NCBI GenBank assembly: GCA_025937235.1
Contig: JAICRU010000021.1
Coordinates: 1 to 41,748, forward strand
Direction of reading: 5' to 3'
Length of the DNA stretch: 41,748 nt
From: Acidimicrobiia bacterium
GTDB taxonomy: Bacteria > Actinomycetota > Acidimicrobiia > Spongiisociales > ZC4RG35
Shown here: positions 7,806-37,400 of the stretch, one piece after another
Numbering within the stretch: the stretch's first letter is position 1
Layout: every line of letters starts with the position of its first letter
Notes under the pieces: generated by a model
What the model saw: only the letters and a program-made list of their open reading frames with translations
What the model was told of the DNA's origin: nothing
Databases searched by the model: none
Made by a program: the position numbers and the translations under genes

Positions 7806-7849
7806 CGCCAAAGTACGCCTACGGTCCGATGGAGCTTTAACCTTTTGCC
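7806..7849. promoter_or_regulatory. Divergent permease/cysD intergenic region
   Basis: Only 44 bases separate the permease ATG from the cysD GTG. No clear Shine-Dalgarno precedes either start, so leaderless transcripts are possible, which are frequent in actinobacteria. Promoters for both directions must overlap here or lie within the genes. I see no obvious operator palindrome. Confidence 0.4.
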
Positions 7850-8758
7850 GTGGCCGCTGTTCAGCCGAGTCATCTCCGCGCCCTCGAATCAGAGTCGATT
7901 CACATCATCCGGGAGGCGGTAGCCGAATCCGAGAATCCTGTCCTCCTCTTCTCGGGGGGCAAGGACTCCGCCCTCGTGCTACGTCTCGCGGTGAAGGCAT
8001 TCTGGCCTGCCCGTCTCCCGTTCCCGGTCATGCACGTCGACACCGGTCACAACTTCGACGAGGTGATCGATTTTCGGGACCGGACCATCGCCGAGCTGGA
8101 GGCGAATCTGATCGTGGCCTCCGTCCAGGAGGCCATCGAGCAGGGGAGGGTGGTCGAAGAGACCGGGCCTCGGGCTTCCCGGAACCGTCTCCAGACCGAG
8201 TCCCTGCTCAACGCTATCGACAAGCACCGCTTCGACGTGGTGTTCGGTGGCGCCCGCCGTGATGAAGAGAAGGCGAGGGCCAAGGAGCGGGTCTTCTCAT
8301 TCCGGGACGAGTTCGGTCAGTGGGACCCCAAGAACCAGAGACCCGAGCTCTGGTCGCTATACAACGGCAGGCACCGTAACGGCGAGCATATGCGGGTGTT
8401 CCCCATCTCCAACTGGACCGAGATGGACGTCTGGCAGTACATCGACCAGGAGGGGGTCGAGCTGCCCTCCGTGTACTTCTCCCACCGACGGCGTGTCTTC
8501 GAACGTGACGGGATGCTGATGGCGGAGTCGCCCTATCTGAGGTTGCTCCCCAACGAAGAGGTGTTCGAGGCCGTGGTGCGCTTCCGGACGGTGGGGGACA
8601 TGACGTGCACCGGTGGCTTCGAGTCGAGGGCAGCCACGGTCCAAGAGATCATCGACGAGGTTTCGATCAGCCGGATCACAGAGCGTGGCGCCAGCCGGGC
8701 CGACGACCGCACCGCCGATGCGGCCATGGAGGACCGCAAGCGGGAGGGCTACTTCTGA
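7850..8758 (+). CDS. cysD: Sulfate adenylyltransferase subunit 2 (CysD)
   Basis: CysD is the catalytic subunit of ATP sulfurylase, which joins sulfate and ATP to make adenosine 5'-phosphosulfate in the cytosol. The 302-residue protein has the PP-loop LLFSGGKDSALVLRLA at about residues 32-47, MHVDTGHNFDEV, GGARRDEEKARAKER and the C-terminal tail DRKREGYF, all typical of CysD, and is full length. Translation starts at GTG 7850. The stop overlaps the cysN ATG by one base (TGATG). It opens a plus-strand run that continues through cysN, cysC and the polysaccharide ABC exporter. Confidence 0.97.
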   Translation: MAAVQPSHLRALESESIHIIREAVAESENPVLLFSGGKDSALVLRLAVKAFWPARLPFPVMHVDTGHNFDEVIDFRDRTIAELEANLIVASVQEAIEQGRVVEETGPRASRNRLQTESLLNAIDKHRFDVVFGGARRDEEKARAKERVFSFRDEFGQWDPKNQRPELWSLYNGRHRNGEHMRVFPISNWTEMDVWQYIDQEGVELPSVYFSHRRRVFERDGMLMAESPYLRLLPNEEVFEAVVRFRTVGDMTCTGGFESRAATVQEIIDEVSISRITERGASRADDRTADAAMEDRKREGYF

Positions 8759-10017
8759 TGACCGAACTGGTTCGCATCGCCACCACAGGCTCGGTCGACG
8801 ACGGGAAGAGCACCCTGATCGGGCGGCTGCTCTTCGACTCCAAGCAGATCTTCGAAGACCAGCTGGTGGCCGTGGAGGACGCCAGCCGGAAGCGGGGCAC
8901 CGACTATGTGGACCTGGCTCTGTTAACCGACGGCCTGCGTGCCGAGCGGGAGCAGGGGATCACCATCGACGTCGCCTACCGCTATTTCGCCACACCGAAG
9001 CGCAGGTTCGTCCTTGCCGACACTCCCGGGCATATCCAGTACACCCGGAACATGGTGACCGGGTCGTCGACGGCGAATATCGCCCTGATCCTGGTCGATG
9101 CCCGCCTGGGGATCCTGGAGCAGACCAGGCGTCACTCGTTCCTCGCCTCGCTGCTCGGCGTGCCCCACCTGGTCCTTTGTGTCAACAAGATGGACCTGGC
9201 CGACTGGTCCCAGGAGCGTTTCGAGGAGATCGTCGACGAGTTCAGGGACTTCGCCACCAGGCTCGACATCCACGATCTCCGTTTCGTCCCAATTTCCGCC
9301 CTGGAAGGGGACAACGTGGTCAACCAGTCGGAGCGCATGCCCTGGTACCACGGACCGACCGTGTTGGAGTTGCTCGAGGAGATCCACATCGGCAGCGACC
9401 AGAACATGATCGATGTGCGATTCCCGGTGCAGTACGTGATCAGGCCCCATCGTCGGGAGTACCAGGACTTCAGGGGGTATGCGGGCAAGGTGGCCGGCGG
9501 GCTGATCAAGCAGGGTGACGAGGTGATGGTCCTGCCCAGCGGGTTCACCACCAAGGTTCGCTCCATCGAGACCTTCGACGGGCCGCTGGAGGAGGCGGCG
9601 CCCCCGATGTCGGTGGTCATCACCCTCGAGGACGATATCGACGTCTCCCGGGGGGACATGCTGTGCCGCCCCCACAACCAGCCCCATGCCTCCCAGGACA
9701 TCGACGCCATGGTCGCCTGGATGTCCGAAGGCCCGCCGCTGAAGGTCGGAGCGAAATACGGCATCAAGCACACCACCCGCTGGGGCAAGGCGATGGTCAA
9801 GGAGTTCCAGTACCGGCTCGACGTCAACACCCTCCACCGTGATGAAACGTCCGAGACTTTGAGTCTGAACGAGATCGGCCGGGTACGGCTGCGCTCCACC
9901 ACACCCCTCTTCTTCGACGAATACCGGCGCAACCGGGAGACCGGCTCTTTCGTCCTCGTCGACGAGGCGACCAACGTCACGGTCGGGGCGGGGATGATCA
10001 CGGGCGAGGGGTCGTGA
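8758..10017 (+). CDS. cysN: Sulfate adenylyltransferase subunit 1, GTPase (CysN)
   Basis: CysN is the EF-Tu-like GTPase that drives APS formation by CysD. The start is ATG 8758, giving 419 residues; the longer track ORF from 8605 runs inside cysD. G1 is GSVDDGKST, then [18 protein letters not shown] (switch I), LADTPGH (G3) and CVNKMD (G4). Beta-barrel domains II and III follow. It is shorter than the 475-residue E. coli protein and is not fused to an APS kinase, unlike many actinobacterial CysNC proteins; the kinase is the next gene. Its stop overlaps the cysC GTG by four bases. Confidence 0.96.
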
Positions 10018-10604
10018 GCGAGAACGTGGTCTGGCACCGGGGTGGGGTCGGGTCAGCGGATCGGGAGCCGACGACAGGGGGCCGGGGTATGACCGTCTGG
10101 ATGACCGGGCTCTCCGGAAGCGGCAAGTCGACCATCGCCTATCTGGCCGAGGAGAGTCTGATCGGTTCGGGGCGGGCGGCCTACGTGCTCGACGGGGACA
10201 ACCTGCGTCACGGTCTCAACGCCGACCTCGGTTTCGGAGCGGAAGATCGAGCCGAGAACGTGCGACGGGTGGGCGAGGTGGCCCGCCTCATGGCCGATGC
10301 CGGTCTGGTGGTGCTGGTGCCGGTGATCTCACCCTTCGCCGCCGACCGGAAGATGGTGCGCGAGGCACACCAGCAGGCCGGGCTGGGCTTCATCGAGGTG
10401 TTCGTCGATGCCCCGCTCGAGGTGTGCGAGGCACGCGACCCCAAGGGTCTCTACGCCCGGGCCCGGGCCGGGGAGATCTCCGAGATGACCGGCATCGATT
10501 CCCCCTATGAGGCGCCGGAGAGCCCCGAACTCAGTCTCGACACCGATGCCTCCGCACCCGAGGAGCTGGCCGAGCTTCTCGTCGCGGAGGTCACCTCGAG
10601 ATGA
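10014..10604 (+). CDS. cysC: Adenylylsulfate kinase (CysC)
   Basis: APS kinase phosphorylates the 3' hydroxyl of APS to give PAPS, the universal sulfuryl donor. The 196-residue protein has Walker [10 protein letters not shown] at about residues 32-40, [10 protein letters not shown], the [12 protein letters not shown] segment, the ISPFAADR loop and [14 protein letters not shown], so all key motifs are present. The first 25 residues before MTVWMTG are extra or the true start is the internal ATG at 10089; GTG 10014 is favoured because it overlaps the cysN stop (GTGA). The gene overlaps the next one, the ABC permease, by four bases, an unusual tie between PAPS synthesis and glycan export. Confidence 0.96.
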
Positions 10605-11422
10605 CCACGACCACCCCATCGCCGGTCTACTACGCCCGTCGCTTCAACGAGTACATGGCCGAGTTGTGGAGGCGACGGGACTTCGTCTGGTTCCTGGCCC
10701 GGGGCAACATCAAGGCACGCAATGCGTCGACCGTGCTCGGGCTCGCCTGGTGGGTCCTCAACCCGCTGCTCCTCGGCTTCGTCTACTTCTTCATATTCGG
10801 CCTGATCTTCCCTACGCAGCGGGACATCGCCTATCTGCTGTCGGGGATATTCGTCTTTCACTACAGCAGCCAGTCCATGTCTGGGGGAGCCAACTCGATA
10901 ATCGGGAACTCCAAGCTGCTGGTGAACATCAGGTTCCCGCGCCTCATCCTGCCCATCGCGTTCCTGCTCGAATCGACCTTTGGTTTCCTGGCCTCACTGG
11001 TGGTCCTCTACCTGATCGTCATCCCCTTCGCCGATGTCATCCCCGGGCCGAGCATCCTTTGGCTCTTAGTGGCCCTGCCCCTTCAGATAGTCTTCAACCT
11101 GGGTCTGGCTGCGGCCACTGCACGCCTGGCAGTGCCCTTCCGTGACATCACCAACCTGATCCCTTACCTGACCCGGATCTGGCTGTACATGTCGCCGATC
11201 ATCTGGCCCCTGTCCATGCTGGAGAGTGTGTCGGAGACATTCCAGGGCCTGTTCCGGCTCAACCCGATGTTCCCCATCATCGCCGTCTATCGGACCGCCC
11301 TTCTTGGCTACCCGCTGGCCCAGGCAGACCTGGTAGCCATGGTGGCCTGGTGTCTGGCGATAGGCGTCATCGGGGTGGCCATGTTCATCAAATTCGAGGG
11401 CCGGATGGTGAGGTACCTGTGA
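10601..11422 (+). CDS. ABC-2 type polysaccharide exporter permease (Wzm/TagG-like)
   Basis: This 273-residue membrane protein has six hydrophobic segments and the ABC-2 pattern of O-antigen and teichoic acid exporters: an N-terminal amphipathic helix ([28 protein letters not shown]), the region [10 protein letters not shown] and the late segment [11 protein letters not shown]...[12 protein letters not shown]. Wzm/TagG proteins form the membrane channel that moves undecaprenyl-linked glycans across the cytoplasmic membrane. It starts at ATG 10601, overlapping the cysC stop, and its own stop overlaps the GTG of the ATPase gene. The cargo is probably the glycan made by this locus. Confidence 0.93.
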
Positions 11423-12186
11423 GCGCCCCCGCCATCAAGGTAGAGAACGTGTGGGTCAGATTCCGGCCCTACGTCGATCGTCGCCCCACGCTGCGCCGCT
11501 CCCTGGCCACATTTCGCCACAAGGAGACCCAGTTGGTCGAAGCACTCAAGGGTGTCTCCTTCGAAGTGCAGAAGGGGGAGGCGTTCGGCGTGGTCGGCCA
11601 GAACGGGGCGGGGAAGAGCACTCTGCTTCGGGTGATGGCCCGCACACTGCGCCCCGATGAAGGCCGGGTGGTAGTCCGGGGCCGGATGTCGACTTTGCTC
11701 CAACTCGGGGTGGGCTTCAATGCGCAGCTCTCCGGGAGCCGCAACATCTATCTGGGGGGCCTGGTGGCCGGCCTCAACAAGAAGCAGGTCGACGAGCGGT
11801 ACGACGAGATAGTGGAGTACTCCGAGCTGGGGGACGCCATCTACCGTCCGATGAAGACCTACTCGTCGGGGATGTTCTCCAGATTGGCGTTTGCGGTTGC
11901 GATGCATCTCGACCCAGAGATCCTCCTCCTCGACGAGGTGCTGGCTGTTGGCGACGAGGGCTTCAAGGAGAAGAGCATGGCCACCATGCACGAGCTGTTG
12001 GACCGGTCGGGAAGCATCGTCTTCGTCAGCCACGCGGTGAGACAGCTCGCCGATTTCTGCGACCGGGCTGCCTGGCTCGACGAGGGCCGGGTCCGCGCCA
12101 TCGGCGAGGCACATGGGGTGGTCGAGGAGTACCGGGAGTTCGTTCAGCGTCGCCGGAAAGAGCTGAGGGCGCAGGGGCTGGCGTGA
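11419..12186 (+). CDS. ABC transporter ATPase for polysaccharide export (Wzt/TagH-like)
   Basis: The GTG at 11419 (GTGA with the permease stop) gives 255 residues; the track's 11350 start lies inside the permease. Walker A is GQNGAGKST, the Q-loop region LLQLGVGFN and NIYLGGLVAGLNKK are typical of Wzt/TagH, the signature is YSSGMFSRLAFAVA and Walker B is ILLLDEVLAVGDEGF, then the H-loop SHAVRQL. It lacks the extra C-terminal carbohydrate-binding domain of long Wzt proteins, so export need not depend on a terminal-sugar modification. Together with the permease it should energise polysaccharide export. Confidence 0.94.
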   Translation: MSAPAIKVENVWVRFRPYVDRRPTLRRSLATFRHKETQLVEALKGVSFEVQKGEAFGVVGQNGAGKSTLLRVMARTLRPDEGRVVVRGRMSTLLQLGVGFNAQLSGSRNIYLGGLVAGLNKKQVDERYDEIVEYSELGDAIYRPMKTYSSGMFSRLAFAVAMHLDPEILLLDEVLAVGDEGFKEKSMATMHELLDRSGSIVFVSHAVRQLADFCDRAAWLDEGRVRAIGEAHGVVEEYREFVQRRRKELRAQGLA

Positions 12187-20513: not shown

Positions 20514-23500
20514 CTAGGTGACAGACGCAATCGATTCCGGCCTGTGGCCCCCCGCCCCGACCTTTATCTGCTCCTGGAACGCCGAGAAGAACTCGGCGAA
20601 CTCCTTCGCCACCGGGAGCGTGCCCACATTCGCCATCGCCTCATCCATGATGATCGCTAGGTTTCGGCGCACAGCGTTGTACGAGAACTGGCGAAGATAG
20701 AGCCGTCGCCCCGCCTCCACCATGCGAAGGGTGCCGTTTCGGTCCTCGAACAGACCATCGAGCGTCTCCCGCAGAAGATCGATTCGTCCGAAAGGCACTG
20801 TCTTCAAGTATCCCTGCCGGGCCATATCGCCAAGATCTCCGATGTCATGCGCGACGACAGGCACCTTCATCGCCAGGGCGTCCGTTAGCTTGTACGGCAT
20901 CTGATAACGGCTTGCTGGAACATCGGGGTCGAGCCATAGGATCACAACGTCGCTCGCCCGGTTGATCTGCGCCATATGGTTCCTGTCGACGGGGTCGAGG
21001 ATCGTGACCCGATCGTTGGCGAGGGAGCGAAGCTCTTCGAGCTCGGGACTCGCCCGCGAGCCGACTACTACCAGTCGATACTTCGAACCTTGGTCTCGCA
21101 GGAGGTCAAGCAACTGGAAAACGCCCTTGTGGCGGCGAACCAGCCCGCCGAAGAGGATGACCCGGTCGTCGCGGGAGAAGCCCAGGCGGGAGCGAATCTC
21201 TCCACGGTCGAGCCGATCTGGGTCGTAGTGCTCCTCGTCCTTGGGATTCCTGACAAAGAATGCCCCGTTTCCAAAGTGTCGGTCCAATTCCGAGTTGTGG
21301 GTAACGCGAATAGGAATCTGTTTGACCAGGCTCTCCATGATTTGCGTCCACAGGTCGCTACGGGGGTTGAGGAGCCGAGGGTCACCTGGTTCCACATGCG
21401 ACAGTTGGACGGTTGAGAGCTCGTCGCCACGTCGAGGATTGGCGATGACGGATTCGAGGTCGTTTACCTCGACGACCACGGGTGTGCCGAACTGATAGTT
21501 CGCCAACAGGGCAGCACCGAGGCTCGGAAGCCGCGGTTTCACGGCGTAGATCACGTCGCCAGACAGGTTGGCCACTGCTTTGGCCAGGTGTCGATTCCAG
21601 TCTGGGAACGGCCCGCCGGGTAGGAAGAGAGTCTCGAAGTCGGGTTCGGCGTCCTTATAGGGCGGAAATATCGGTTCATCGAAGAATCGGAACCCAGCTA
21701 ACTGCACCTGAGTCTCCGAAGCCATTGCCTCGGCTACGTTGTATGCCTTCGAAAAATGATTGCGACAGATGTCCCAGCTGATGATCGTGAGGGATGGCGG
21801 GTCACGATCGTGCGCCCCCGACAAGCCCTTCTCATAGGATTGCTCGAGTGTCGACCGGATCAGCTGGGGACTGCTCTTGTCTCGCCGGTATACCTTGGTT
21901 ATCTGATTCCAGGCGTCGCTGCGTCGATACAAGGTAAGGAATCGATCTACGTAGACGGGATCACGTAGGTACGAATATCTGAGGATGAGGTCCCAATCCT
22001 GTTGCCGCACCAAACGCTCATCGAATCCTCCCAGGTGGTCGTAGAGCGAGCGTCTGTGAACGAAGCTGTTGAGGTCGATGAAGTTCTTCATGGTCAGCGA
22101 CTCGTAGTCGAATGGCCTGGATTCGAAGCTTCTGAGCTTTAGCTTGCGTTCGTTCACCATGAGATCAACGAACTTACAGTAAGCGGCATACTGGCCATTT
22201 CCAGGGCCAAGAGCAGCGACCATGCTTTCGAGGAAACTGGGATGCCAGAGGTTGTCGGAGTCGAGGTAGGCAATGACGTCGCCGGTGGCCCGCGACAAAC
22301 CAAAGTTACGTGCCCGCGCCGCGCCACCCCACGGCAACTCGGCGTACTTGATGCGCGCGTCGAGAACCCGACCTACCACTTCCGACGTCCCGTCGGTGCT
22401 CCCGTCGTCACAGATCAGCAATTCCCAATTCTCGTATGTCTGCTCGAGAACACTTGTTATGGCCTCCCCGATGAGGAAGGCTCGATCGCGTGTGGGCATG
22501 ACGATGGACACAAGCGGAAGGCCCGGACCGCCGGGAGCTGACTCTCCAATGGACTCACTCGCGGTCCAGTCGGCGATGAATTCCGTAGGCGCACCTTGCG
22601 CCACGAGATCTCTGATCAACCCGTAGAAGAGTCCAGACCGAGGTGGCGAGTCTTCGAAGATACGTCTGACAGCCTCTCCGTCGATGATTGGTGATGGGGC
22701 CTCTGCGTCGACCGCCGCCTCACTGGCCGAGGTGCCATCGTCAGAACGCGATCGGATCAGGGTTGTGTCCCCGCGACCTCTGACGAGGCGAAACATAGGC
22801 TTCGCCATTCCGGCGACAGCCAGAGCAACGCGAACCGCCCTTCGATTCCTCAGGCGAAGCAGATCCTTCTCGCGACGGAGGCGCGCGGTTGTTTCTCTCT
22901 CGAGGTTCCTTTGGAGCTTTGAGACCTGCTGTCCCAGTGCGCGGCGTTCCTCGTTGTGTTGGACAACGGACTCGCGATACCATTTCTCGGCTTCTTTGAC
23001 CTTGGTCTCGGCAAGGATCGCTCTCTGTTCCGCGGCAGTCTTGGCCTTGCTGATGTCGCGAAGCTCTCGATCTGTTTCACTCAACCGTTTGCGGCGATCC
23101 TCGGCTACTTCGCGAAGCTCTTCGACTTTCCTCTCCTCCCGTAGCATGCGACGCTGGGTTTTGCTCAACTGCTCAAGACGCCCAATCCGGTCTGCTTCGA
23201 CCGCCTCGATGACTCTGATCAGGCTCTCCGGCTCGAATAACTTCATGACTGCTTGATGCACCTGAGGAGGTGAGCCGGAGTCGAGGATGATCCCCAGACC
23301 GTGGAGGCCAGGGATGACATGGAGCATCACGGCACCGGCCTGGCTGGCAACGAAGTCCTCGATTGCCGTCAGCACGCCATTTCGCGGGGTGCCCTCGTGG
23401 ATTGCGTTCTCGAGATGGTCGTTGAATCCATGATCGGCCAGGCCCCTTCGGCCGAACGTTATGCCCCCCTTGCGATGTGGATGTCGGAATGCATTCGGGA

Positions 23501-23921
23501 TTGTGGCGGGGTCGTAATACAGGTCTCGCCGCCCGTAGGGCCAGCCCACATCGTGCAACACCGTCGTCGGAAATGGCTGGTTCGACGAACGAGCTGACGA
23601 ACTCAACATCTCAAGCTCGTGGAAGATGGTGTACCAGTTGTGGTCGCCATCGATGCACGCAAAGTCCACTGGTCCTATATCGACCAGGGCATTCAGCGAC
23701 AGGTCCCGATGGAGACGCAACGTGTCGGGCCATCGTTCGAGCCACCCTGCGACGTCGTATTTTGGCAACGGGTCCACAGAGTGGAGGACCGCCTCGTGAT
23801 CTTGACACCACTGGGCAAGGAGCTCGGTTCCGAAGCCGCGATCACTGCCGATTTCGACGACTTTTGTGGGTCCGACGGCTTCAAGGAGGGGCCGTATTAT
23901 GGGTTCAAAGAAGCGATGCAT
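20514..23921 (-). CDS. Trifunctional methyltransferase - GT2 - GT4 protein with coiled-coil linker
   Basis: This 1135-residue protein joins three enzyme-like modules. Residues 1-210 are a class I SAM methyltransferase (KVVEIGSDRGFGTELL, VDFACIDGDHNWY). Residues 235-360 are a long charged coiled coil. Residues 468-690 are a GT2 domain (VSIVMPTRDRAFLIGEAI, ICDDGSTDG, DSDN as the metal-binding motif). Residues 715-1100 resemble a GT4 enzyme (VILFGGLVRRHKGVFQLLDLL, then the donor-binding part KLTDALAMKVPVVAHDIG). Such proteins resemble the WbdD/WsaE type, in which a methyl cap can control chain length; that role here is inference. The gene is divergent from the methyltransferase at 23987, 65 nt away. 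No frameshift is visible. Confidence 0.88.
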   Translation of the reverse strand: MHRFFEPIIRPLLEAVGPTKVVEIGSDRGFGTELLAQWCQDHEAVLHSVDPLPKYDVAGWLERWPDTLRLHRDLSLNALVDIGPVDFACIDGDHNWYTIFHELEMLSSSARSSNQPFPTTVLHDVGWPYGRRDLYYDPATIPNAFRHPHRKGGITFGRRGLADHGFNDHLENAIHEGTPRNGVLTAIEDFVASQAGAVMLHVIPGLHGLGIILDSGSPPQVHQAVMKLFEPESLIRVIEAVEADRIGRLEQLSKTQRRMLREERKVEELREVAEDRRKRLSETDRELRDISKAKTAAEQRAILAETKVKEAEKWYRESVVQHNEERRALGQQVSKLQRNLERETTARLRREKDLLRLRNRRAVRVALAVAGMAKPMFRLVRGRGDTTLIRSRSDDGTSASEAAVDAEAPSPIIDGEAVRRIFEDSPPRSGLFYGLIRDLVAQGAPTEFIADWTASESIGESAPGGPGLPLVSIVMPTRDRAFLIGEAITSVLEQTYENWELLICDDGSTDGTSEVVGRVLDARIKYAELPWGGAARARNFGLSRATGDVIAYLDSDNLWHPSFLESMVAALGPGNGQYAAYCKFVDLMVNERKLKLRSFESRPFDYESLTMKNFIDLNSFVHRRSLYDHLGGFDERLVRQQDWDLILRYSYLRDPVYVDRFLTLYRRSDAWNQITKVYRRDKSSPQLIRSTLEQSYEKGLSGAHDRDPPSLTIISWDICRNHFSKAYNVAEAMASETQVQLAGFRFFDEPIFPPYKDAEPDFETLFLPGGPFPDWNRHLAKAVANLSGDVIYAVKPRLPSLGAALLANYQFGTPVVVEVNDLESVIANPRRGDELSTVQLSHVEPGDPRLLNPRSDLWTQIMESLVKQIPIRVTHNSELDRHFGNGAFFVRNPKDEEHYDPDRLDRGEIRSRLGFSRDDRVILFGGLVRRHKGVFQLLDLLRDQGSKYRLVVVGSRASPELEELRSLANDRVTILDPVDRNHMAQINRASDVVILWLDPDVPASRYQMPYKLTDALAMKVPVVAHDIGDLGDMARQGYLKTVPFGRIDLLRETLDGLFEDRNGTLRMVEAGRRLYLRQFSYNAVRRNLAIIMDEAMANVGTLPVAKEFAEFFSAFQEQIKVGAGGHRPESIASVT

Positions 23922-25047: not shown

Positions 25048-27213
25048 ATGCAGTCAGCTAGCGAACCGATCTTGGATTCTGCTCGGACGCGCCTAATGGA
25101 AATCTCGCGGACCGTAACCACGTTCGAGGTGTTCGCGTCGTGCGTCGCGTTCTTGTGCCTGGCTGTTTCCCAACCAATACTTGACCTGCTGGGACGGAAC
25201 CCGGAGTTCTTCCTGGCTAGATCTTCGCCCGCTCTCGACGTGGTCCTTGTCGGAGTCGTCCTGGGATTGGTGGCTCCCGTGCTCACCGGATTATTGGTGG
25301 CGGGGATACACCATCTCAACCTGGCGGTAGGTACGGCCATTCACATCGTCGTGTTGGGGCTCTCCGGCACTGTGTTATTCGTGGATGTGCTCGAGCGATT
25401 CGTGGTCGGATCGCCGCTGCTGGTGGCTATTGCGTGCATGGTGGGAGCTGCAATCGTGCTCCTGTTCTACGGCTCGTTCACGTTCCGCACGGTTACGAAG
25501 TACGTCGCCTTCGCGCCCTTGGTTGTGATGATGAGCTTCGCCACCCTATCCCCCTTATCACGTCTGCTTTTCGCGGCTGACCGAGTGGAGTCGGATGCAG
25601 TAACGGCGGAGGTCGGTAACGAGGTACCGATCGTGATCGTGGTGTTCGATGAGTTTCCGCTGGCATCGCTCATCGATGCGAATGGAGAGATCCAGAGTTC
25701 GAATTACCCGAACTTCGCCCGACTTGCGGCCGATTCCTTGTGGCTGAGGAATGCGGTGACGAACGAGAGCATCACCGAGCGTGCTCTGCCGATGATACTG
25801 ACGGGTAACAGAGCTCAACCGGAAGCCATACCGGCGCTAGGTGATTACCCCGACAACCTCTTCACGTTGCTCGAAGGAACGTACGAGATCCGAGCTACCG
25901 AGGACCTAACCGACCTTTGCCCCTCCTCGGCATGCTCGAGCCTCGAGCCGAGCACATGGCAGGAGCGTTGGCGTGGCATGGCTAGCGATCTGAGAATCGT
26001 CGCCCTGCACGTCCTACTGCCCAGCACCATGACCGCTGGCCTCGCTCCTATCGATCAATCGTGGGCGGACTTCGACGAACAGCAGCTCGATGTGTCAGCG
26101 AGCGACGAGACAGCGGAGTTTAGCGAACGCTTCGCAGAGGTATCCCAGGAGGGCCGGGAGCATCAATTCGCAGAGTTCCTCGATTCGATAGCTCCAGCCG
26201 AGGCGCAGCCCACTTTGGATTTCATCCACCTGCTGTTGCCGCATTCGCCCTGGGAATTCCTGCCCGACGGCAGGCGGCACTGGTCACCGCAACCAGCGCG
26301 GGGGACCAACGGCCCCGGTTGGGTGGACGATCCCTGGCTCGTGCATCAGATCTATCAGCGGCACCTCCTGCAGGTCCAATACACGGACACGCTGGTCGGC
26401 ATGCTTCTCGACCGGCTGCGTGCGCTCGAGGTCTACGACGAGTCACTGATCGTCGTGGTCGCGGATCACGGAATCGCGTTCACTCCTGGCACCGACCACC
26501 GACGGCGACTCACCCGGGAAACCATCGGTGAGATGGTCGCCGTACCGCTCTTCATCAAGCCACCGACGGGGCATCCGACGGGAATTGACGACTACAGGGC
26601 AGAGCTCATCGACATCGTCCCGACGGTTGCCGACATCATCGACGTCGACTTGCCCTGGCCGACCGAGGGCGTATCCCTGCTAGAAGCCGATCGCCCGGCG
26701 CGCGAAGAATCGGTGATCAATCAGAGATCGAAACCTCTGGTCATCGGGATCGATGGACAAGAAAAGCTGGAGGTGGCTCGCGAGAAGATTGCCATCTTTG
26801 GCTCGGGCAGCCCGTACGGATTGGTGCCTTCGGGGACTCGTGACCTGCTCGAGACGCCGCTTTCTGACCTCGACATCGAGTCGTCGGCGCCATTTGATGG
26901 TGAAGTGTCCAACCCGCTGAGGTACCAAGAATTCGATCCGGATGCCGTGATCATCCCTGCTTACGTGCAGGGAGTGCTGGGCCGGACTGTGAATGACGAA
27001 CCAGTACGAATTGCGGTCGCGGTGAACGATGTCATCTCGGCCGTGACACAGTCCTACATCCGGGCTGGACAAGTCTTGTTCCAGGCCCTTCTTCCGCCCA
27101 CGGCTTTCGTCGCCGGGTCCAACGACATCAAGTTGATCTATGTCGCGGGCGATGAGGACCAACTCGAATTGAGCTTTATCGATCTCAGTCCAGCCGCTCC
27201 GTCCACTTCTTGA
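25048..27213 (+). CDS. Membrane-bound sulfatase/alkaline-phosphatase-superfamily protein
   Basis: The protein has 721 residues. Five hydrophobic segments fill residues 25-185, then an extracytoplasmic domain follows. In it VIVVFDEFP is the first metal-binding Asp region, TNESITERALPMILTG occupies the nucleophile position and VVVADHGIAF is the DHG metal motif. LtaS/OpgB-type phosphoglycerol or phosphoethanolamine transferases also use a Thr in front of 'LP.ILTG'. The formylglycine motif CxPxR of true sulfatases is absent, so desulfation is less likely than transfer of a phosphorylated group, although neither is proven. It starts at ATG 25048 and is followed 17 nt later by rfbC. Confidence 0.8.
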   Translation: MQSASEPILDSARTRLMEISRTVTTFEVFASCVAFLCLAVSQPILDLLGRNPEFFLARSSPALDVVLVGVVLGLVAPVLTGLLVAGIHHLNLAVGTAIHIVVLGLSGTVLFVDVLERFVVGSPLLVAIACMVGAAIVLLFYGSFTFRTVTKYVAFAPLVVMMSFATLSPLSRLLFAADRVESDAVTAEVGNEVPIVIVVFDEFPLASLIDANGEIQSSNYPNFARLAADSLWLRNAVTNESITERALPMILTGNRAQPEAIPALGDYPDNLFTLLEGTYEIRATEDLTDLCPSSACSSLEPSTWQERWRGMASDLRIVALHVLLPSTMTAGLAPIDQSWADFDEQQLDVSASDETAEFSERFAEVSQEGREHQFAEFLDSIAPAEAQPTLDFIHLLLPHSPWEFLPDGRRHWSPQPARGTNGPGWVDDPWLVHQIYQRHLLQVQYTDTLVGMLLDRLRALEVYDESLIVVVADHGIAFTPGTDHRRRLTRETIGEMVAVPLFIKPPTGHPTGIDDYRAELIDIVPTVADIIDVDLPWPTEGVSLLEADRPAREESVINQRSKPLVIGIDGQEKLEVAREKIAIFGSGSPYGLVPSGTRDLLETPLSDLDIESSAPFDGEVSNPLRYQEFDPDAVIIPAYVQGVLGRTVNDEPVRIAVAVNDVISAVTQSYIRAGQVLFQALLPPTAFVAGSNDIKLIYVAGDEDQLELSFIDLSPAAPSTS

Positions 27214-27229
27214 TTTACGATGCGGCCGG

Positions 27230-27766
27230 ATGGCACGGCTTTCCAACGAACCGGAGGTAATCGAGGCCAGCGCCTTCGAAGACTCCAGGGGGTTCTTCAT
27301 AGAGTCGTTCAACCAAGCGGCGATCGAGGATCGCGTCGGCGACTTTCGGTGGGTTCAAGACAACCACTCCAGGTCGCGTGTCGGCGTTATCAGGGGCCTC
27401 CACTATCAACTACCACCCAAGGCCCAAGGCAAGCTAGTAATGGTCATTCGTGGAGCGATCTTCGACGTCGCAGTCGACATCAGAAGAACTTCACCGACTT
27501 TCGGTAACTGGACCGGCGTGCACCTCTCGGACGAGAACCACCGGCAGTACTGGATTCCGCCGGGATTTGCACATGGGTTCGTAGCTCTGACCGATCCGGC
27601 GGACGTGGTTTACAAGGTGACCGAGTACTACTCATCGGAGCACGATCGCGCGATCCGATGGGATGATCCCGACATCGGCATCGAGTGGCCGGTCGACGTC
27701 GACCCGATCATCTCTGAGAGGGACGCGACGGCCCCGTACTTGCGGGACGCCGACGTTTTCGCATAG
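27230..27766 (+). CDS. rfbC: dTDP-4-dehydrorhamnose 3,5-epimerase (RfbC)
   Basis: RfbC converts dTDP-4-keto-6-deoxyglucose to its L-lyxo form, the third step of dTDP-L-rhamnose synthesis. The 178-residue protein has FEDSRGFFIESFN, QDNHSRSRVGVIRGLHYQ (catalytic His) and the core YWIPPGFAHGFVAL, and ends with RDADVFA. Key residues appear intact and the length is normal. The other three pathway genes, rfbBAD, lie 2.8 kb downstream. Between them are two foreign-looking genes and then a decayed copy of the 3' end of an rfbC gene. Confidence 0.95.
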   Translation: MARLSNEPEVIEASAFEDSRGFFIESFNQAAIEDRVGDFRWVQDNHSRSRVGVIRGLHYQLPPKAQGKLVMVIRGAIFDVAVDIRRTSPTFGNWTGVHLSDENHRQYWIPPGFAHGFVALTDPADVVYKVTEYYSSEHDRAIRWDDPDIGIEWPVDVDPIISERDATAPYLRDADVFA

Positions 27767-27816
27767 GTTGATCCAGTGCCACCCGAACTTGAGCGTCGGT
27801 GCTGGGTCCGAAGCAC

Positions 27817-29493
27817 ATGAACGTCGTCGTCTACACCGCAGTCTTCAATGACTACGACATCCTGTGGGGCCCCAGGGTGCGAAGTGAAGACGTGCGTTTT
27901 GTGTGCTTTTCCGACCGGCCAATCGTCAGAACCGAGGGTTGGGAAGTGGTTCAGGTCGATCCCCAGAACGGTCATCCTTTCTCGCAGCGCTTCTACAAGC
28001 TTTGTTCTCACCTCGTTTTCCCCGAAGCGGATGTGACTCTCTACCTCGATGGGACGTTCGAGTTGCTAGTCGACCCTCTTCAACTAGTCGACCGGTACCT
28101 GAGCAAATGGGACCTGGCGCTTTTTCGGCATCCCCAGAGACAGGGGGTCTTCGAGGAACTCGACGCGTGTGCCAGATTGGGAAAAGACGACCGTCGCCTC
28201 TTGGAAATGATTGCGGAGCTGTACGCATCCGAGGGCATGCCGGCGAGCGGTTACCTGCGTGCTGGTGGCTTCATCCTCCGCCGTCATTCTCAAGAAGTGG
28301 CTGCGTTCAACGAATGCTGGTTCAGGGAACTCGTTCGTTCCGGGATACGCGATCAGCCTCCACTGGCACACGCCCTGTGGGAGAGCGGAATCTCATTCGA
28401 GACTATCGACGACAACATATGGCGCAACGACATGATGAATTACCATCCGCACAAGGAGAAGCTCCTCCCAGAGCAACGAAGGTTCCTGTTTCTCGGTGGC
28501 AGTCCGCGCTCGGCTACGACAATGCTGCACGGACTCCTTAACAATGATCCTCGCATCGCTCTCGGTAAGGAGCGATACAACACGATAAGGGAAAGGATCA
28601 CTCCGGAGGATTTCTCCGATCACAGTTTCTTTGCGTCAACCCAGGAGGAGACCTCGTCTGTGCCAGCGCGGATGATCCCGCCGGACCAAGCGGGGTTCAG
28701 AGTCTGGCCGGAGGACGAAGCTTCGATGAAGGAGAAATGGACATCAGACACATTGGTGTACATAGGCGATACGTCACCGTTTTACGTCTGGCAACTACCG
28801 TATCTGAGAGAGACATTTCCAGGCGCACGATTCATCGTGATGATTCGAGACCCGGTGTCCAGGGCCGATTCATACCAGAGAAGAAGAGGCTTCGAAGATA
28901 ACTGGCAGTCTGGGAATGACCTCCAGTTGGAAGCTGAGGACCGGGATCAGAATGCGGAGAATCTTCTTGCCTATCTGGAGCGCTTCGGCTTCAACGATGT
29001 CTTCATCATCGACTACGACACCTTCTATGGAGGAGATCGCGACTATCTGCTGTCCCTCTACAGGTTCCTTGACCTGGAAATCGCCCCCGAAGTACAGCGA
29101 CAGTTCGATCTCTTGACCTCCGAGTGGGGTTCTAGCCAACCGCTCCGTCGCGGCCTTGCCGGTGAGGCCGAGGTCGGCCGTCAGTCGAGTCGGGAGGCGT
29201 ACTCGCAGATTCGGCCCGTCCTGCCGATCATGCGCGATTACCACCTGCTTGCACTTGAGCGTGCGGCGCGGATCGACTCAGAGGAGAGGCTTTCAAGCGA
29301 GATGGAAACGAACAGGGGACTTCGCGATCTAGGCCGGTTCCTCTATTTGACTGTCAGAGCTCTGCTTCAGGATGAAGCCATCGGCAACCCCACCGACATT
29401 CAAAGGGCACAGAGGGCCGAGACCGCATGGAGGTCGTTCTGGAAATTGCCGGATTCTGCCGAGACGCCGGCTGCAGGCTGTGGCGGGGAATAG
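27817..29493 (+). CDS. TOD1/DUF616-like glycosyltransferase domain fused to a sulfotransferase
   Basis: Starting at ATG 27817 (GTG 27799 in the track), the protein has about 558 residues. The N-terminal half resembles TOD1/MUCI70 (DUF616) glycosyltransferase-like proteins: MNVVVYTAVFNDYDILWGP, FYKLCSHLVFPEADVTLYLDGTFEL and GVFEELDAC. From about residue 222 comes FLFLGGSPRSATTMLHGLL, the PAPS 5'-phosphosulfate loop, and later IVMIRDPVSRADSYQRRR, the 3'-phosphate loop. So one chain could both add a sugar and sulfate it (inference). It lies in the segment that splits rfbC from rfbBAD, has a lower apparent G+C than the rfb genes, and was probably acquired. Confidence 0.82.
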   Translation: MNVVVYTAVFNDYDILWGPRVRSEDVRFVCFSDRPIVRTEGWEVVQVDPQNGHPFSQRFYKLCSHLVFPEADVTLYLDGTFELLVDPLQLVDRYLSKWDLALFRHPQRQGVFEELDACARLGKDDRRLLEMIAELYASEGMPASGYLRAGGFILRRHSQEVAAFNECWFRELVRSGIRDQPPLAHALWESGISFETIDDNIWRNDMMNYHPHKEKLLPEQRRFLFLGGSPRSATTMLHGLLNNDPRIALGKERYNTIRERITPEDFSDHSFFASTQEETSSVPARMIPPDQAGFRVWPEDEASMKEKWTSDTLVYIGDTSPFYVWQLPYLRETFPGARFIVMIRDPVSRADSYQRRRGFEDNWQSGNDLQLEAEDRDQNAENLLAYLERFGFNDVFIIDYDTFYGGDRDYLLSLYRFLDLEIAPEVQRQFDLLTSEWGSSQPLRRGLAGEAEVGRQSSREAYSQIRPVLPIMRDYHLLALERAARIDSEERLSSEMETNRGLRDLGRFLYLTVRALLQDEAIGNPTDIQRAQRAETAWRSFWKLPDSAETPAAGCGGE

Positions 29494-29606
29494 TGGGCAA
29501 TGATTCTACTTTCGAAAGGACCCAACGCTCCATGTTGGGGAACGGAGAAGTTTGCGTTTAGGGGAAGGTGGCATCCTGCGGGCTCCGTGGGCGTCTTGGG
29601 ATTGAA

Positions 29607-30326
29607 ATGACCTGGCGACAGACTGCTTTGAGTTGGCGACGCTTTGCTGCCAACTATTTGCATTCCCTGGCGATTGCAATGATGCGTCGCGAGTACGCTG
29701 AGTTTGCTCCTCGATCATGGTCAAATCGAGAACTCCGCCGTTTCGCCCATTTGTTCCTCGGTGACGTAATTCACGTATCGGGTTGGGAGGACCGCGACAA
29801 GGAAGGCGGTTTCTATCACGATTATTTCTCGAAGGCTTCCTCGTACCACCTGTCCAATTTTGGTGGCGCGCGGGGCACTAGCCCTCTTACGGACGTTGCG
29901 ATAGATCTCGAAGAGCAGCTTCCGAGCGAACTTGTGGGCAAGTACGACGTCGTCTTTAACCACACTACGCTGGAACACGTATTCGACTTTCGAGGTGCCT
30001 TCGCGCGCCTGTGCGAACTTTCGAAGGATGTAGTAATCGTGGTCGTTCCTTTTGCGCAGGTCGAACATTGGGAGCAAGGCTCTTTTCTTGACTATTGGAG
30101 AGTGACCGAGTTTGGCTTGGAGCGTCTCTTTACAGAAAATGAGCTGGTGCCGCTGTATATTGCGAGCAATCACAACCCAATCTACCCTACGTACTTCTTT
30201 GCGATCGGCTCTCGTCACGGACATAAATGGATTCCGATCGCTCAGGAGGGCAGGAGGAGGCAAGATCAATTCAATCGTGACCGCAAGTTTCGACCCCTCT
30301 GGAACCGATGCAAAGTTCTCATGTAG
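29607..30326 (+). CDS. Methyltransferase-like protein
   Basis: About 239 residues from ATG 29607; the track start is GTG 29568 just behind an AGGGGAAG sequence. YDVVFNHTTLEHVFDFRGAFARLCELSKDVVIVVVPF matches the second half of Methyltransf_11-type SAM enzymes, where the 'HTLEHV' segment is motif IV-V. I do not see a clear glycine-rich SAM motif I (the upstream part reads DVIHVSGWEDRDKEGGFY), so binding may be altered. The base composition is clearly A+T-richer than surrounding genes, pointing to transfer together with the previous gene. The substrate is unknown. Confidence 0.68.
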   Translation: MTWRQTALSWRRFAANYLHSLAIAMMRREYAEFAPRSWSNRELRRFAHLFLGDVIHVSGWEDRDKEGGFYHDYFSKASSYHLSNFGGARGTSPLTDVAIDLEEQLPSELVGKYDVVFNHTTLEHVFDFRGAFARLCELSKDVVIVVVPFAQVEHWEQGSFLDYWRVTEFGLERLFTENELVPLYIASNHNPIYPTYFFAIGSRHGHKWIPIAQEGRRRQDQFNRDRKFRPLWNRCKVLM

Positions 30327-30558: not shown

Positions 30559-31530
30559 GTGTCCCGCAAATATCTGGTGACCGGTGGTGCCGGATTCATC
30601 GGATCGAACTTCGTGCGTTACGTCCTCGAGAAGGAGCCCGACGCTTCGGTGACGAATCTCGACCTCCTCACCTATGCGGGAGTGAAGGCGACCGTCGACG
30701 AGTTGGATCGGTTGCCGGGGCACACCTTCGTGCTCGGTGACATACGCGACCCGGATCTCGTCAACCGGCTCATGCAGGGCATCGACGTGGTCGTCCATTT
30801 CGCCGCCGAGAGCCATGTCGACCGCTCGATCACCGGGCCGTCGGTGTTCCTCGAGACCAACGTCGTCGGCACCGGTGTCCTGCTCGACGCCGCAGCCAGG
30901 CAGGGAGTGCGGAGGTTCATCCATGTCTCCACCGACGAGGTCTACGGGTCGGTGGCCGAGGGCTTCGCCCCCGAGGACGCCCTGCTCGACCCTTCCTCTC
31001 CATACTCGGCATCCAAGGCGGGGAGCGACCTCGTCGCCCTCTCCTACCGGGTTACCTTCGACTACCCGGTGATCGTCACCCGCTGCACCAACAACTACGG
31101 GCCCTACCAGTTCCCGGAGAAGGTCATCCCCCTCTTCGTCACCAACCTCCTCGACGACCTCGAGGTGCCCCTCTACGGGACCGGGTCCAACGAGCGGGAC
31201 TGGCTCTTCGTCGAGGACCATTGCTCGGGCCTCTACCTTCTCGTCGACGAAGGCGCGCCCGGGGAGATCTACAACATCGGGGCCAACGCCCAGATGACCA
31301 ACCTCGATCTCACCCGACGAATACTGGAGATCATGGACAAGGACGAGTCCTCGATCGAATACGTCGAGGATCGCAAGGGCCATGACCTCAGATACGCCGT
31401 TGACTCCTCGAAGATCCGGGCCCTGGGCTGGGCGCCGACACACGACTTCGACGAGCGCATCTCCGACACGGTCGACTGGTACCGGAGCCGCGAGGACTGG
31501 TGGCGACCACTGAAGAAGGCGAGCGCGTGA
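30559..31530 (+). CDS. rfbB: dTDP-glucose 4,6-dehydratase (RfbB)
   Basis: RfbB makes dTDP-4-keto-6-deoxyglucose in dTDP-L-rhamnose synthesis. The 323-residue SDR has the NAD site VTGGAGFIGSNFV, then HFAAESHVDRSI, STDEVYGS and the catalytic YSASKAGSD, followed by RCTNNYGPYQFPEKVIPL. It is full length. The GTG start at 30559 comes 10 nt after the decayed rfbC end. Its stop overlaps the GTG of rfbA by four bases. Compared with the two genes upstream its codons are again G+C-rich. Confidence 0.96.
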   Translation: MSRKYLVTGGAGFIGSNFVRYVLEKEPDASVTNLDLLTYAGVKATVDELDRLPGHTFVLGDIRDPDLVNRLMQGIDVVVHFAAESHVDRSITGPSVFLETNVVGTGVLLDAAARQGVRRFIHVSTDEVYGSVAEGFAPEDALLDPSSPYSASKAGSDLVALSYRVTFDYPVIVTRCTNNYGPYQFPEKVIPLFVTNLLDDLEVPLYGTGSNERDWLFVEDHCSGLYLLVDEGAPGEIYNIGANAQMTNLDLTRRILEIMDKDESSIEYVEDRKGHDLRYAVDSSKIRALGWAPTHDFDERISDTVDWYRSREDWWRPLKKASA

Positions 31531-32402
31531 AAGGCATCGTCCTCGCCGGCGGGGCCGGCACCAGGCTCGACCCGATGACCCGGGTGGCCAGCAAGCAGCT
31601 GCAGCCCGTCTACGACAAGCCGATGGTCTACTACCCGCTGGCCACGCTGATGGAGGCCGGGATCTCGGAAACCCTGCTCATCTCCACCCCACACGACATT
31701 CCTCGGTTCGAGGACCTGTTGGGGGACGGGACACCATGGGGCATCTCCATCGAATACGCTGTCCAAGAACATCCCGGCGGCATCGCCCAAGCCTTCCTCG
31801 TCGGTGAATCCTTCGTGGGCACCGACCCGGTGGCTCTCATCCTTGGCGACAACATCTTCTACGGAGCGCTCGGCCTGGCCGAGATCGTGGAGGGGTTCAC
31901 AGGCGGCGCACTCGTTTTCGGATACCCGGTCTCCGACCCCGAAAGATACGGCGTCGTCGAGCTCGCCGACGACGGCAAGGTTCTCTCCCTGGAGGAGAAG
32001 CCGGCCAGACCCAAGTCGAACCTTGCGGTGCCCGGCTTCTACCTCTACGACGGGAGGGTGGTGGAGATTACCAAGCGGCTCAAGCCCTCGGCCCGGGGCG
32101 AACTCGAGATCACCGACCTGAACCGGGCTTATATGGAGGAGGGGACTCTCCGGGCCGTGCCCTTGGGGCGGGGCATCGCCTGGCTGGACAGCGGCACCCA
32201 TGACTCCCTGCTCGAGGCGGCCAACTTCATCGCCACCATCGAACACCGGCAGGGGCTAAAGATCGCCTGTCTCGAGGAGATCGCGCTGGACCGTGGCCTG
32301 GTCAGCCTGCAGCAGATGGAGGCGACCCTTTCGGCCATGCCCAACTCCACTTACCGCGACTACGTGGCTCGGGTGCTCGGGGAGCACCGATCAGAGGCAT
32401 AG
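31527..32402 (+). CDS. rfbA: Glucose-1-phosphate thymidylyltransferase (RfbA)
   Basis: RfbA joins glucose-1-phosphate and dTTP to dTDP-glucose, the first pathway step. The proper start is GTG 31527 (GTGA with the rfbB stop), giving 291 residues; the 31500 start in the track lies within rfbB. The protein begins VKGIVLAGGAGTRLDPMT and has YDKPMVYYPLATLMEAGI, LGDNIFYG and the end YRDYV, all typical. The stop at 32402 is overlapped by the following rfbD reading frame. Confidence 0.95.
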   Translation: MKGIVLAGGAGTRLDPMTRVASKQLQPVYDKPMVYYPLATLMEAGISETLLISTPHDIPRFEDLLGDGTPWGISIEYAVQEHPGGIAQAFLVGESFVGTDPVALILGDNIFYGALGLAEIVEGFTGGALVFGYPVSDPERYGVVELADDGKVLSLEEKPARPKSNLAVPGFYLYDGRVVEITKRLKPSARGELEITDLNRAYMEEGTLRAVPLGRGIAWLDSGTHDSLLEAANFIATIEHRQGLKIACLEEIALDRGLVSLQQMEATLSAMPNSTYRDYVARVLGEHRSEA

Positions 32403-33229
32403 CGGTCCTCGGAGCGGGGGGCCAGCTGGGAACCGCCTTCATGCGTCTTCTCGGCGACGACGCAGTACCGCTGACCAGGGCCGATCTGGATCTTGCCAGC
32501 CCTGATCACATCGCCCCCACCCTCGACGGGCTCGACCCTTCGATGGTGGTCAACTGTGCCGCCTACACCGCGGTCGACCGGGCAGAGGAGGAAGAGGACC
32601 TGGCCACAGCGGTCAACTCGGTGGCGGTGGGGGTCCTCGCCGAGTGGGCCGCGGTGCGCTCCCGGCCGATGCTGACCTTCTCCACCGACTATGTCTTCGA
32701 CGGGTTCTCCGACGAGCCCTACGTGGAGACCTCACCGACCAACCCAGTCAATGCTTATGGCCGCTCCAAGCTCCCCGGTGAGACGCTGGCCGTGGGGCAG
32801 GGGGCCTTGGTGGTGCGCACCTCGTGGGTGATCTCGGGCAGCCACCCCAACTTCGTGGCCACCATCCTCCACAAGGTCAAAGAGCAGGAGCTACGGGTGG
32901 TGGACGACCAACGGGGCAACCCAACGGTGGCGGCCGATCTGGCCCGGGCCAGCTTCGACGCCCTCGGTGCCGGTGTCACCGGGCTGCTCCATCTGACCAA
33001 CGAAGGGGAGACAACCTGGTACGAGCTGGCCCGGACCAGTGTTGGTCTGGCCGACCTCGACCCCTCCCGGATCTCGCCATGTGCCACCGAGGACTACCCG
33101 ACCCCGGCCCGGCGACCCGCCTATTCGGTGCTCGCCTCGGAGCGGCTGGAGGACCTCGGGCTCGAGCCACTCCCACACTGGCGCACGTCGATCTGGCATG
33201 TCGTGGACGAGCTCAAGACCTGGATCTGA
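32390..33229 (+). CDS. rfbD: dTDP-4-dehydrorhamnose reductase (RfbD), apparent non-canonical start
   Basis: RfbD reduces dTDP-4-keto-L-rhamnose to dTDP-L-rhamnose. Catalytic STDYVFDG and the YGRSK pair (YxxxK) are present, as is the substrate part VVRTSWVISG. The track ORF begins at ATG 32441, but the conserved Rossmann start GIAVLGAGGQLGTAF is encoded upstream in frame, with no ATG, GTG or TTG between it and the frame's earlier codons. ATC 32390 with GGGGAG 5 nt ahead gives (M)RGIAVLGAGGQLG, a normal RfbD N-terminus; ATA 32399 is another possibility. A start at 32441 would delete the NADPH-binding loop. The 3' end overlaps the convergent GT2 gene by 17 nt. Confidence 0.9.
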   Translation: MRGIAVLGAGGQLGTAFMRLLGDDAVPLTRADLDLASPDHIAPTLDGLDPSMVVNCAAYTAVDRAEEEEDLATAVNSVAVGVLAEWAAVRSRPMLTFSTDYVFDGFSDEPYVETSPTNPVNAYGRSKLPGETLAVGQGALVVRTSWVISGSHPNFVATILHKVKEQELRVVDDQRGNPTVAADLARASFDALGAGVTGLLHLTNEGETTWYELARTSVGLADLDPSRISPCATEDYPTPARRPAYSVLASERLEDLGLEPLPHWRTSIWHVVDELKTWI

Positions 33230-35832: not shown

Positions 35833-36567
35833 GTGCCGGGCGGATATCCGACAGTCACCATGCTCCACGTCGGTCGTTGTGGGAGCACGGTCGTGGCCGA
35901 GATGCTGGGTCGTCACCCGTCGATCTCATGGGACGGTGAGGTGTTCGAACCGAAGGTGCGGGCCAAGATCGGTTACGAGGATGTTCCGCCTGTGGCGTTC
36001 CTCCGCGACCGTATCGCCCGGGCTCCCGAAATCTACGGGTTCGAGATCAAATACCTGCCCTCGCATCACCAGCGAGTCCTCGGCCTCGACCTGGAAGGCA
36101 TCCTCCAGCTGACCGACTCAGTGGGTGTCAGCCTCTACGTGACCCTGCATCGGCGCAACTACCTGCGGAGGGTGGTGTCCGGTGTGATCGGGAGGGAGCG
36201 GCGACGATGGCATCGAACCTCCGATCAGCCCACGCCGGACACGAAAGTCCGGGTCGATCTTGGCGCAGTGCCATTCGGGCCCCGCCAGCCGCTTCTGGAG
36301 GTCCTGGAGGAGATGAAGAAAGGGGAGGCGGATCTGAAATCGGCGTTGTTGGATCGGGCCGCCCTACATCTCACGTATGAAGACGACGTGGCGATCGACC
36401 CGGTCAAGGCTTACACGTCGGTGTGTGAATTCATCGGCATCACGCCGGAGGATGTGCGGCCCGCGCTGGGGCGGACAGGCACCGATCGACTCGAATCGAT
36501 GGTGACCAACTACGACGAGATCGTCGAGGCCCTGTCCGGCACCGAATATGCCTGGATGCTGGACTAG
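35833..36567 (+). CDS. Sulfotransferase-like protein
   Basis: A 244-residue protein from GTG 35833. TVTMLHVGRCGSTVVAEMLGRHPSISWDGEVF resembles the PAPS-binding N-terminus of Stf0-like sulfotransferases, with a Cys in place of the usual Ser/Thr. The second motif, ETHRRNY-like in this group, appears as LYVTLHRRNYLRRVVSGVIG, with the arginine and serine for 3'-phosphate contacts. It sits 12 nt before a second sulfotransferase gene. The family assignment is less certain than for that neighbour, but the tandem pair supports it. Confidence 0.72.
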   Translation: MPGGYPTVTMLHVGRCGSTVVAEMLGRHPSISWDGEVFEPKVRAKIGYEDVPPVAFLRDRIARAPEIYGFEIKYLPSHHQRVLGLDLEGILQLTDSVGVSLYVTLHRRNYLRRVVSGVIGRERRRWHRTSDQPTPDTKVRVDLGAVPFGPRQPLLEVLEEMKKGEADLKSALLDRAALHLTYEDDVAIDPVKAYTSVCEFIGITPEDVRPALGRTGTDRLESMVTNYDEIVEALSGTEYAWMLD

Positions 36568-36578
36568 ATCTCCGCCCG

Positions 36579-37400
36579 ATGTTACGTCGACGCCCGAGCC
36601 AAGAGCCACCGGTCGAGTTGCCGATGGCCCCACCCCTTTGGGTCATCGGCGCGCCTCGCTCGGGAACGACCTTCCTGGCGCGGGTGCTGGACCACCACCC
36701 TCAGGTTCTTCTGACCAACGAGACCCGGATCATGCTCCTGTTCAGCAGAATGTTGAACAGATGGGTCGAGTCGCGTCGTCTCCTGGCAACCTCAAAGGCC
36801 GAAATCCTCGACAGCCTGTGGCGCCAGACACCTGGCGTGATCGAGCAGATCTATCGGGATCTCGGCGCCAGACCGGGGCAGCGTTGGGGCGACAAGTATC
36901 CGCAGTATGCCGACGGTGACCAGGAACCGGAAGCGTTGGCTACCATCGACCGTCTGTTCCCAGAGGGCCAATACGTCCACATCATCCGAGACCCGAGGGC
37001 GGTCGTGGCTTCGATCGTGGCCAAGGGGTGGCTCCCGTTCGACGAGGCGATCCAAGCTTGGCGCGACTTCGTGACTCATGCCATGGCCTTCGGACAAGGT
37101 GTCGGGTCGAGCCGTTACCACGAGCTCAGGTTCGAGGATCTGGTGACCGACGGACCGACGACGGTCGACTCGATCCTGAAGTTCCTCGGCCTTCCCGATG
37201 ATGAGGGCGTCGTCCGATTCCTCCGCTCCCAGGAATCGGGGCGCGATCGATTGAGTTATCCGACGGGGATTCCGGGGAGCATCGGACCGGCGGCTTGGGA
37301 AGCACGACTCGACGGCGAGCAGGTACGAGCCGTGGAGTCCAAGCTCGGCGACCTGATGACCGAACTGGGTTACGAACGCTCTTCGTCATCGACGTACTGA
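36579..37400 (+). CDS. Sulfotransferase family protein
   Basis: The 273-residue protein carries WVIGAPRSGTTFLARVLDHHPQV (about residues 21-43), the standard 5'-phosphosulfate loop, and YVHIIRDPRAVVASIVAKGW, the 3'-phosphate loop with its Arg and Ser. It also ends with the PAPS-family-typical region LRFEDLVTD and LKFLGLPDD. It would sulfate a sugar, probably the locus glycan, in the cytosol using PAPS from CysC. The 12-nt gap to the preceding sulfotransferase suggests one transcript. No signal peptide or membrane helix is visible. Confidence 0.9.
   Translation: MLRRRPSQEPPVELPMAPPLWVIGAPRSGTTFLARVLDHHPQVLLTNETRIMLLFSRMLNRWVESRRLLATSKAEILDSLWRQTPGVIEQIYRDLGARPGQRWGDKYPQYADGDQEPEALATIDRLFPEGQYVHIIRDPRAVVASIVAKGWLPFDEAIQAWRDFVTHAMAFGQGVGSSRYHELRFEDLVTDGPTTVDSILKFLGLPDDEGVVRFLRSQESGRDRLSYPTGIPGSIGPAAWEARLDGEQVRAVESKLGDLMTELGYERSSSSTY

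Follow-up and report, generated by a model that had tools for sequence, protein, structure and literature searches.

The presence of PAPS genes together with sulfotransferases in a polysaccharide cluster is regarded as a hallmark of sulfated polysaccharide synthesis in the pertinent section of one report (PMC11641403), and clusters from Cobetia and Vibrio have been assigned, in the sections cited here, to sulfated capsules whose structures had been determined (PMC11766843, PMC11641403). As outlined in those sections, Cobetia marina KMM 1449 and Vibrio sp. KMM 8419 carry cysDNC, sulfotransferases, dTDP-rhamnose genes, glycosyltransferases (GTs) and an ABC exporter in one cluster, as does the DNA analysed here, and the Cobetia cluster also includes a sulfate permease comparable to the sulfate-type transporter described below (PMC11766843, PMC11641403). 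The family TOD1_MUCI70 (PF04765, formerly DUF616) is described from plants, where MUCI70 is reported to be a rhamnogalacturonan I galacturonosyltransferase, RGGAT1, active in vitro (PMC10576798), while alkaline ceramidase activity was reported for Arabidopsis TOD1 expressed in yeast (PMC4309442). Here a protein is described in which a domain of this family is joined to a sulfotransferase domain. The window, the whole stretch of DNA that was analysed, comprises 41,748 nucleotides of a contig from an Acidimicrobiia bacterium (GCA_025937235.1, JAICRU010000021.1). It encodes several glycosyltransferases in addition to the following features.

6033 to 7811, reverse strand: CitMHS / Na-sulfate symporter family transporter, probable sulfate uptake
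7850 to 10601, forward strand: cysD, cysN and cysC, ATP sulfurylase and APS kinase for PAPS synthesis (NCBIfam matches over cut-off)
10601 to 12186, forward strand: ABC-2 polysaccharide exporter pair, Wzm/Wzt-like
20514 to 23921, reverse strand: chimeric ORF of 1135 aa that combines methyltransferase, GT2 and GT4 domains
25048 to 27213, forward strand: sulfatase-superfamily protein whose N-terminal part is hydrophobic
27230 to 27766, forward strand: rmlC, dTDP-4-dehydrorhamnose 3,5-epimerase
27817 to 29493, forward strand: fusion protein of 558 aa (open frame and Pfam matches to both halves)
27817 to 28470, forward strand: N-terminal DUF616/TOD1_MUCI70 GT-A domain of the fusion, residues 1-218 (Pfam, alignment, model, Foldseek)
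28471 to 29490, forward strand: C-terminal Sulfotransfer_3 domain of the fusion, residues 219-558 (Pfam, PAPS motifs, model)
29568 to 30326, forward strand: probable SAM methyltransferase, assigned by eye, the second gene in the rmlC-rmlB interval
30559 to 33229, forward strand: rmlB, rmlA and rmlD, dTDP-rhamnose synthesis, a conserved flank
35833 to 37400, forward strand: two further sulfotransferase genes (35833-36567 a weak match below cut-off, 36579-37400 a strong match)

The frame at 27817-29493 contains 558 open codons from an ATG at 27817, with an alternative in-frame GTG start at 27799. The original prediction, made from the sequence alone, that this frame joins a DUF616-like domain to a PAPS-binding sulfotransferase domain was borne out. 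Residues 42-182 matched TOD1_MUCI70 with 69.1 bits against the curated Pfam cut-off of 21.4, so that the profile search that could have refuted the N-terminal assignment supported it, and residues 224-422 matched Sulfotransfer_3 (PF13469) with 74.2 bits against a cut-off of 27. The C-terminal half contains a 5'-PAPS loop (GGSPRSATTML) and a 3'-PAPS motif (IRDPVSRADS), both of which aligned with those of other sulfotransferases.

The structures of the two halves were modelled separately rather than as one chain. The model of the N-terminal domain has a pLDDT of 94.7 and a pTM of 0.91, and its top Foldseek matches are GT6 enzymes, the human ABO enzymes and bacterial BoGT6a (E ~5e-7, probability 1.00), superimposing with TM ~0.55, mostly 0.5-0.58, at 11-15% identity. 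Residues K61, D78, E114, R155 and Q180 are invariant across an alignment of 59 DUF616 domains drawn from cellular and viral loci, the fusion's included. The model supports assignment of the N-terminal half as a GT-A glycosyltransferase structurally nearest the retaining family GT6, and by its fold the domain may use a UDP-sugar with retention of configuration. The polymer on which MUCI70 acts contains rhamnose, and the fusion gene is located among rml genes; transfer of the sugar onto rhamnose could therefore be proposed by analogy as a testable guess, no more. The model of the C-terminal half is of moderate quality (pLDDT 64.6) and, like the sequence, resembles PAPS-dependent sulfotransferases, a likeness of fold and sequence from which the acceptor cannot be read.

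The gene neighbourhood provides a source of activated sulfate for such a domain. The only APS kinase found in the whole genome, which is 96.7% complete, is the cysC of the window, and the only PF01507 gene found is the cysD of the window; this draft genome thus yielded no PAPS or APS reductase of PF01507. Since no such reductase was found, the PAPS made by the products of the window probably serves sulfation and not sulfur assimilation, absence from a draft genome being weak evidence. With PAPS genes, sulfotransferases, glycosyltransferases and an exporter together, the window has the composition by which sulfated-polysaccharide clusters are recognised. The product of the gene at 29568 to 30326 had no match in Pfam, NCBIfam or PHROG. 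A second sulfotransferase gene cluster is present elsewhere in the source genome (L156, contig C35).

Comparison with a genome of the same genus (G002) revealed conserved flanks on both sides of the fusion gene. This genome retains cysD, cysN, cysC, wzm, wzt and the next glycosyltransferase gene with 71-90% identity, and rmlB, rmlA, rmlD and the next two genes with 77-87% identity, which shows that the contig belongs to the genus and is not a contamination. The window genes between the wzm-wzt/GT flank and rmlBAD were not found in the G002 sequence, bar a weak sulfatase-family match, an absence that is apparent only, the flanks in G002 being on two separate contigs of which that with rml is short. 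A weak counterpart of the sulfatase-superfamily protein is located at L155:13012-14706 in the same-genus genome. Downstream of the exporter genes, G002 contains another, different gene that by eye alone resembles a sulfotransferase and that has no match in Pfam. The GC content at third codon positions (GC3) is 0.81-0.86 in cysDNC-wzm-wzt and 0.84-0.87 in rmlBAD, and 0.58-0.75 in the genes between, with a sharp boundary at rmlB where the value rises from 0.58 to 0.87. A variable cassette between conserved flanks is the usual layout of surface-antigen loci. Given the flanks conserved in G002, the apparent lack there of the genes between and the lower GC3 of the latter, the fusion probably lies in a strain-variable, antigen-type cassette of ~18 kb that ends at rmlB. 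It had been proposed that the gene is part of a segment inserted between rfbC (rmlC) and rfbB (rmlB). In agreement, rmlC is located immediately upstream of rmlB in 11 of 14 relatives; however, rmlC itself shows the lowered GC3 of the cassette (0.74), and the sharp change comes only at rmlB. The variable block therefore probably includes rmlC, and the larger cassette is the better description.

The pairing of the two domains is rare in the sequences searched. A set of 142 ORFs (43 of them of at least 400 aa) gave 105 distinct DUF616 domains, from viruses and several phyla; of these ORFs the fusion is the only one that also matches a sulfotransferase profile, one built partly from the fusion protein itself, the Pfam result being independent of that profile. 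DUF616 was detected in 4 of 397 genomes sampled from the source phylum, in 4 of 399 from the phylum of Amaricoccus (3 over the cut-off) and in 10 of 388 from the phylum of a Verrucomicrobia genome. Viral contigs often encode DUF616 glycosyltransferases, with at least 80 loci (L038-L117) in a scan with a three-sequence alignment, and such enzymes are also present in Cellulophaga and Synechococcus phages. The search for the same fusion in other bacteria returned single halves only, with no full-length homologue in 60 relatives or 395 genomes of the class, in the species-level genome collection and viral contigs searched with peptide patterns, or in plasmids and phages searched by tblastn; a literature search found no description of a DUF616-sulfotransferase fusion. 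Separate sulfotransferase genes were, in several loci, located beside DUF616 genes: at 22 bp in Cereibacter (a weak profile match), and adjoining or near in Amaricoccus, in two further genomes (G1433 and G780) and in one viral contig. This proximity in unrelated loci is no more than supportive. In two unrelated bacteria (L007, L119) DUF616 shares an ORF with a C-terminal part that by eye is methyltransferase-like, and that in L007 is without a Pfam match.

Based on domain assignments and models, it is fairly probable that the fusion is bifunctional, both adding and sulfating a sugar of an exported, probably rhamnose-containing surface glycan. The strongest support comes from the linked sulfate-type transporter, cysDNC, exporter and rml genes, the two additional sulfotransferase genes and the lack of a detected PAPS reductase. 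The two-domain protein, probably cytoplasmic, would function in a sulfated surface-polysaccharide locus, in which the DUF616 domain would extend a lipid-linked glycan by one sugar, the most likely donor being a nucleotide sugar, for instance a UDP-sugar. The C-terminal domain would move sulfate from PAPS, supplied through the sulfate-type transporter and CysD-CysN-CysC encoded in the window, to the added sugar or its neighbour prior to export of the sulfated chain by the linked Wzm/Wzt-like ABC transporter. The original prediction that one protein carries out both sugar addition and sulfation is plausible and strengthened by the linked PAPS genes: since genes for making activated sulfate are part of the cluster, the two steps are likely coupled, the activities and the coupling alike being predictions. 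In the most specific form of this proposal, which is put forward tentatively, the GT6-like domain would hand each new sugar to its own sulfotransferase domain such that one polypeptide fixes both chain building and sulfation pattern.

Both domains could instead be active in the same glycan pathway on different residues, the fusion merely co-localising or co-expressing two enzymes as in other DUF616 chimeras. In other single ORFs DUF616 is joined to GT2, GT4, RgpF or methyltransferase domains, and the methyltransferase-GT2-GT4 chimera in the window is a neighbouring example of domains combined in one chain. Nothing decisive opposes this explanation, as the linker of ~10 residues permits coupling but does not require it; we consider it possible but rather unlikely. 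It is improbable that one half is degenerate, with DUF616 only binding the acceptor for an active sulfotransferase, or vice versa. The fusion does depart at two near-invariant DUF616 columns (G11 to N and S182 to P), and in its PAPS loop RSATT replaces the RSGTT of the closest relatives, a single G-to-A departure; however, every invariant DUF616 residue is kept, and the RDQP at the second departing column is also present in another large glycan protein (L027).

Sulfation of protein tyrosines by the C-terminal half would follow from its nearest solved relatives, the tyrosylprotein sulfotransferases TPST1 and TPST2, which are closest both in sequence and in the fold of the model. The identity to these enzymes is only ~20%, however, STF9 and the glycan sulfotransferase heparan 3-O-sulfotransferase (3-OST) were matched lower and NDST was matched too, and the entire neighbourhood is devoted to glycan synthesis, making this activity very improbable. 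Equally slight is the chance that an error of sequencing or assembly created the fusion, or that it reflects a private stop-losing mutation between two neighbouring genes. The fusion is present in only one of the genomes searched, a draft of 171 contigs, and adjacent DUF616 and sulfotransferase genes are known in other loci; against this, the codon-position pattern continues unbroken with the frame from one half into the other and the halves have almost equal GC3 (0.68 and 0.66), which argues against a sequencing error, and the linker contains no ATG. That the DUF616 half is an alkaline ceramidase like yeast-expressed TOD1 (PMC4309442) is almost certainly wrong, for although the published activities of the plant members conflict, the predicted GT-A fold nearest GT6 favours an activity of the MUCI70 type, a galacturonosyltransferase (PMC10576798), and Pfam names PF04765 glycosyltransferase-like.

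The preferred reading, an enzyme that both adds and sulfates a sugar, connects DUF616, a bacterial glycosyltransferase family of which little is understood, with sulfation through a gene fusion. In the genus concerned, the cysDNC genes appear to be reserved for the sulfation of glycans and not for sulfur assimilation. If true, a sugar-adding and sulfating enzyme in a single piece would be a handy tool for the preparation of defined sulfated glycans.

Compared with characterised proteins, the N-terminal domain has its nearest solved fold in the ABO transferases and BoGT6a, at ~12-14% identity, a resemblance of fold that does not imply membership of GT6. It belongs over cut-off to the same family as the plant pectin-synthesis enzyme MUCI70/RGGAT1, with the invariant residues retained and in a setting of glycan synthesis, and differs from TOD1/MUCI70 in that the protein is bacterial, is joined to a sulfotransferase and matches only profile positions ~129-281 of 314. 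The C-terminal half falls within the PF13469 family of TPST, STF9 and NoeE-like enzymes, above cut-off and with PAPS-binding motifs, and differs from these in having no close relative among the sequences found and in being joined to a glycosyltransferase. Whereas the Cobetia and Vibrio clusters, in the sections cited, have separate glycosyltransferase and sulfotransferase genes and Kps-type export, the window has the fusion and a Wzm/Wzt-like exporter (PMC11766843, PMC11641403). The domains and the type of locus are thus known, and what is new is the pairing of the two domains in one protein.
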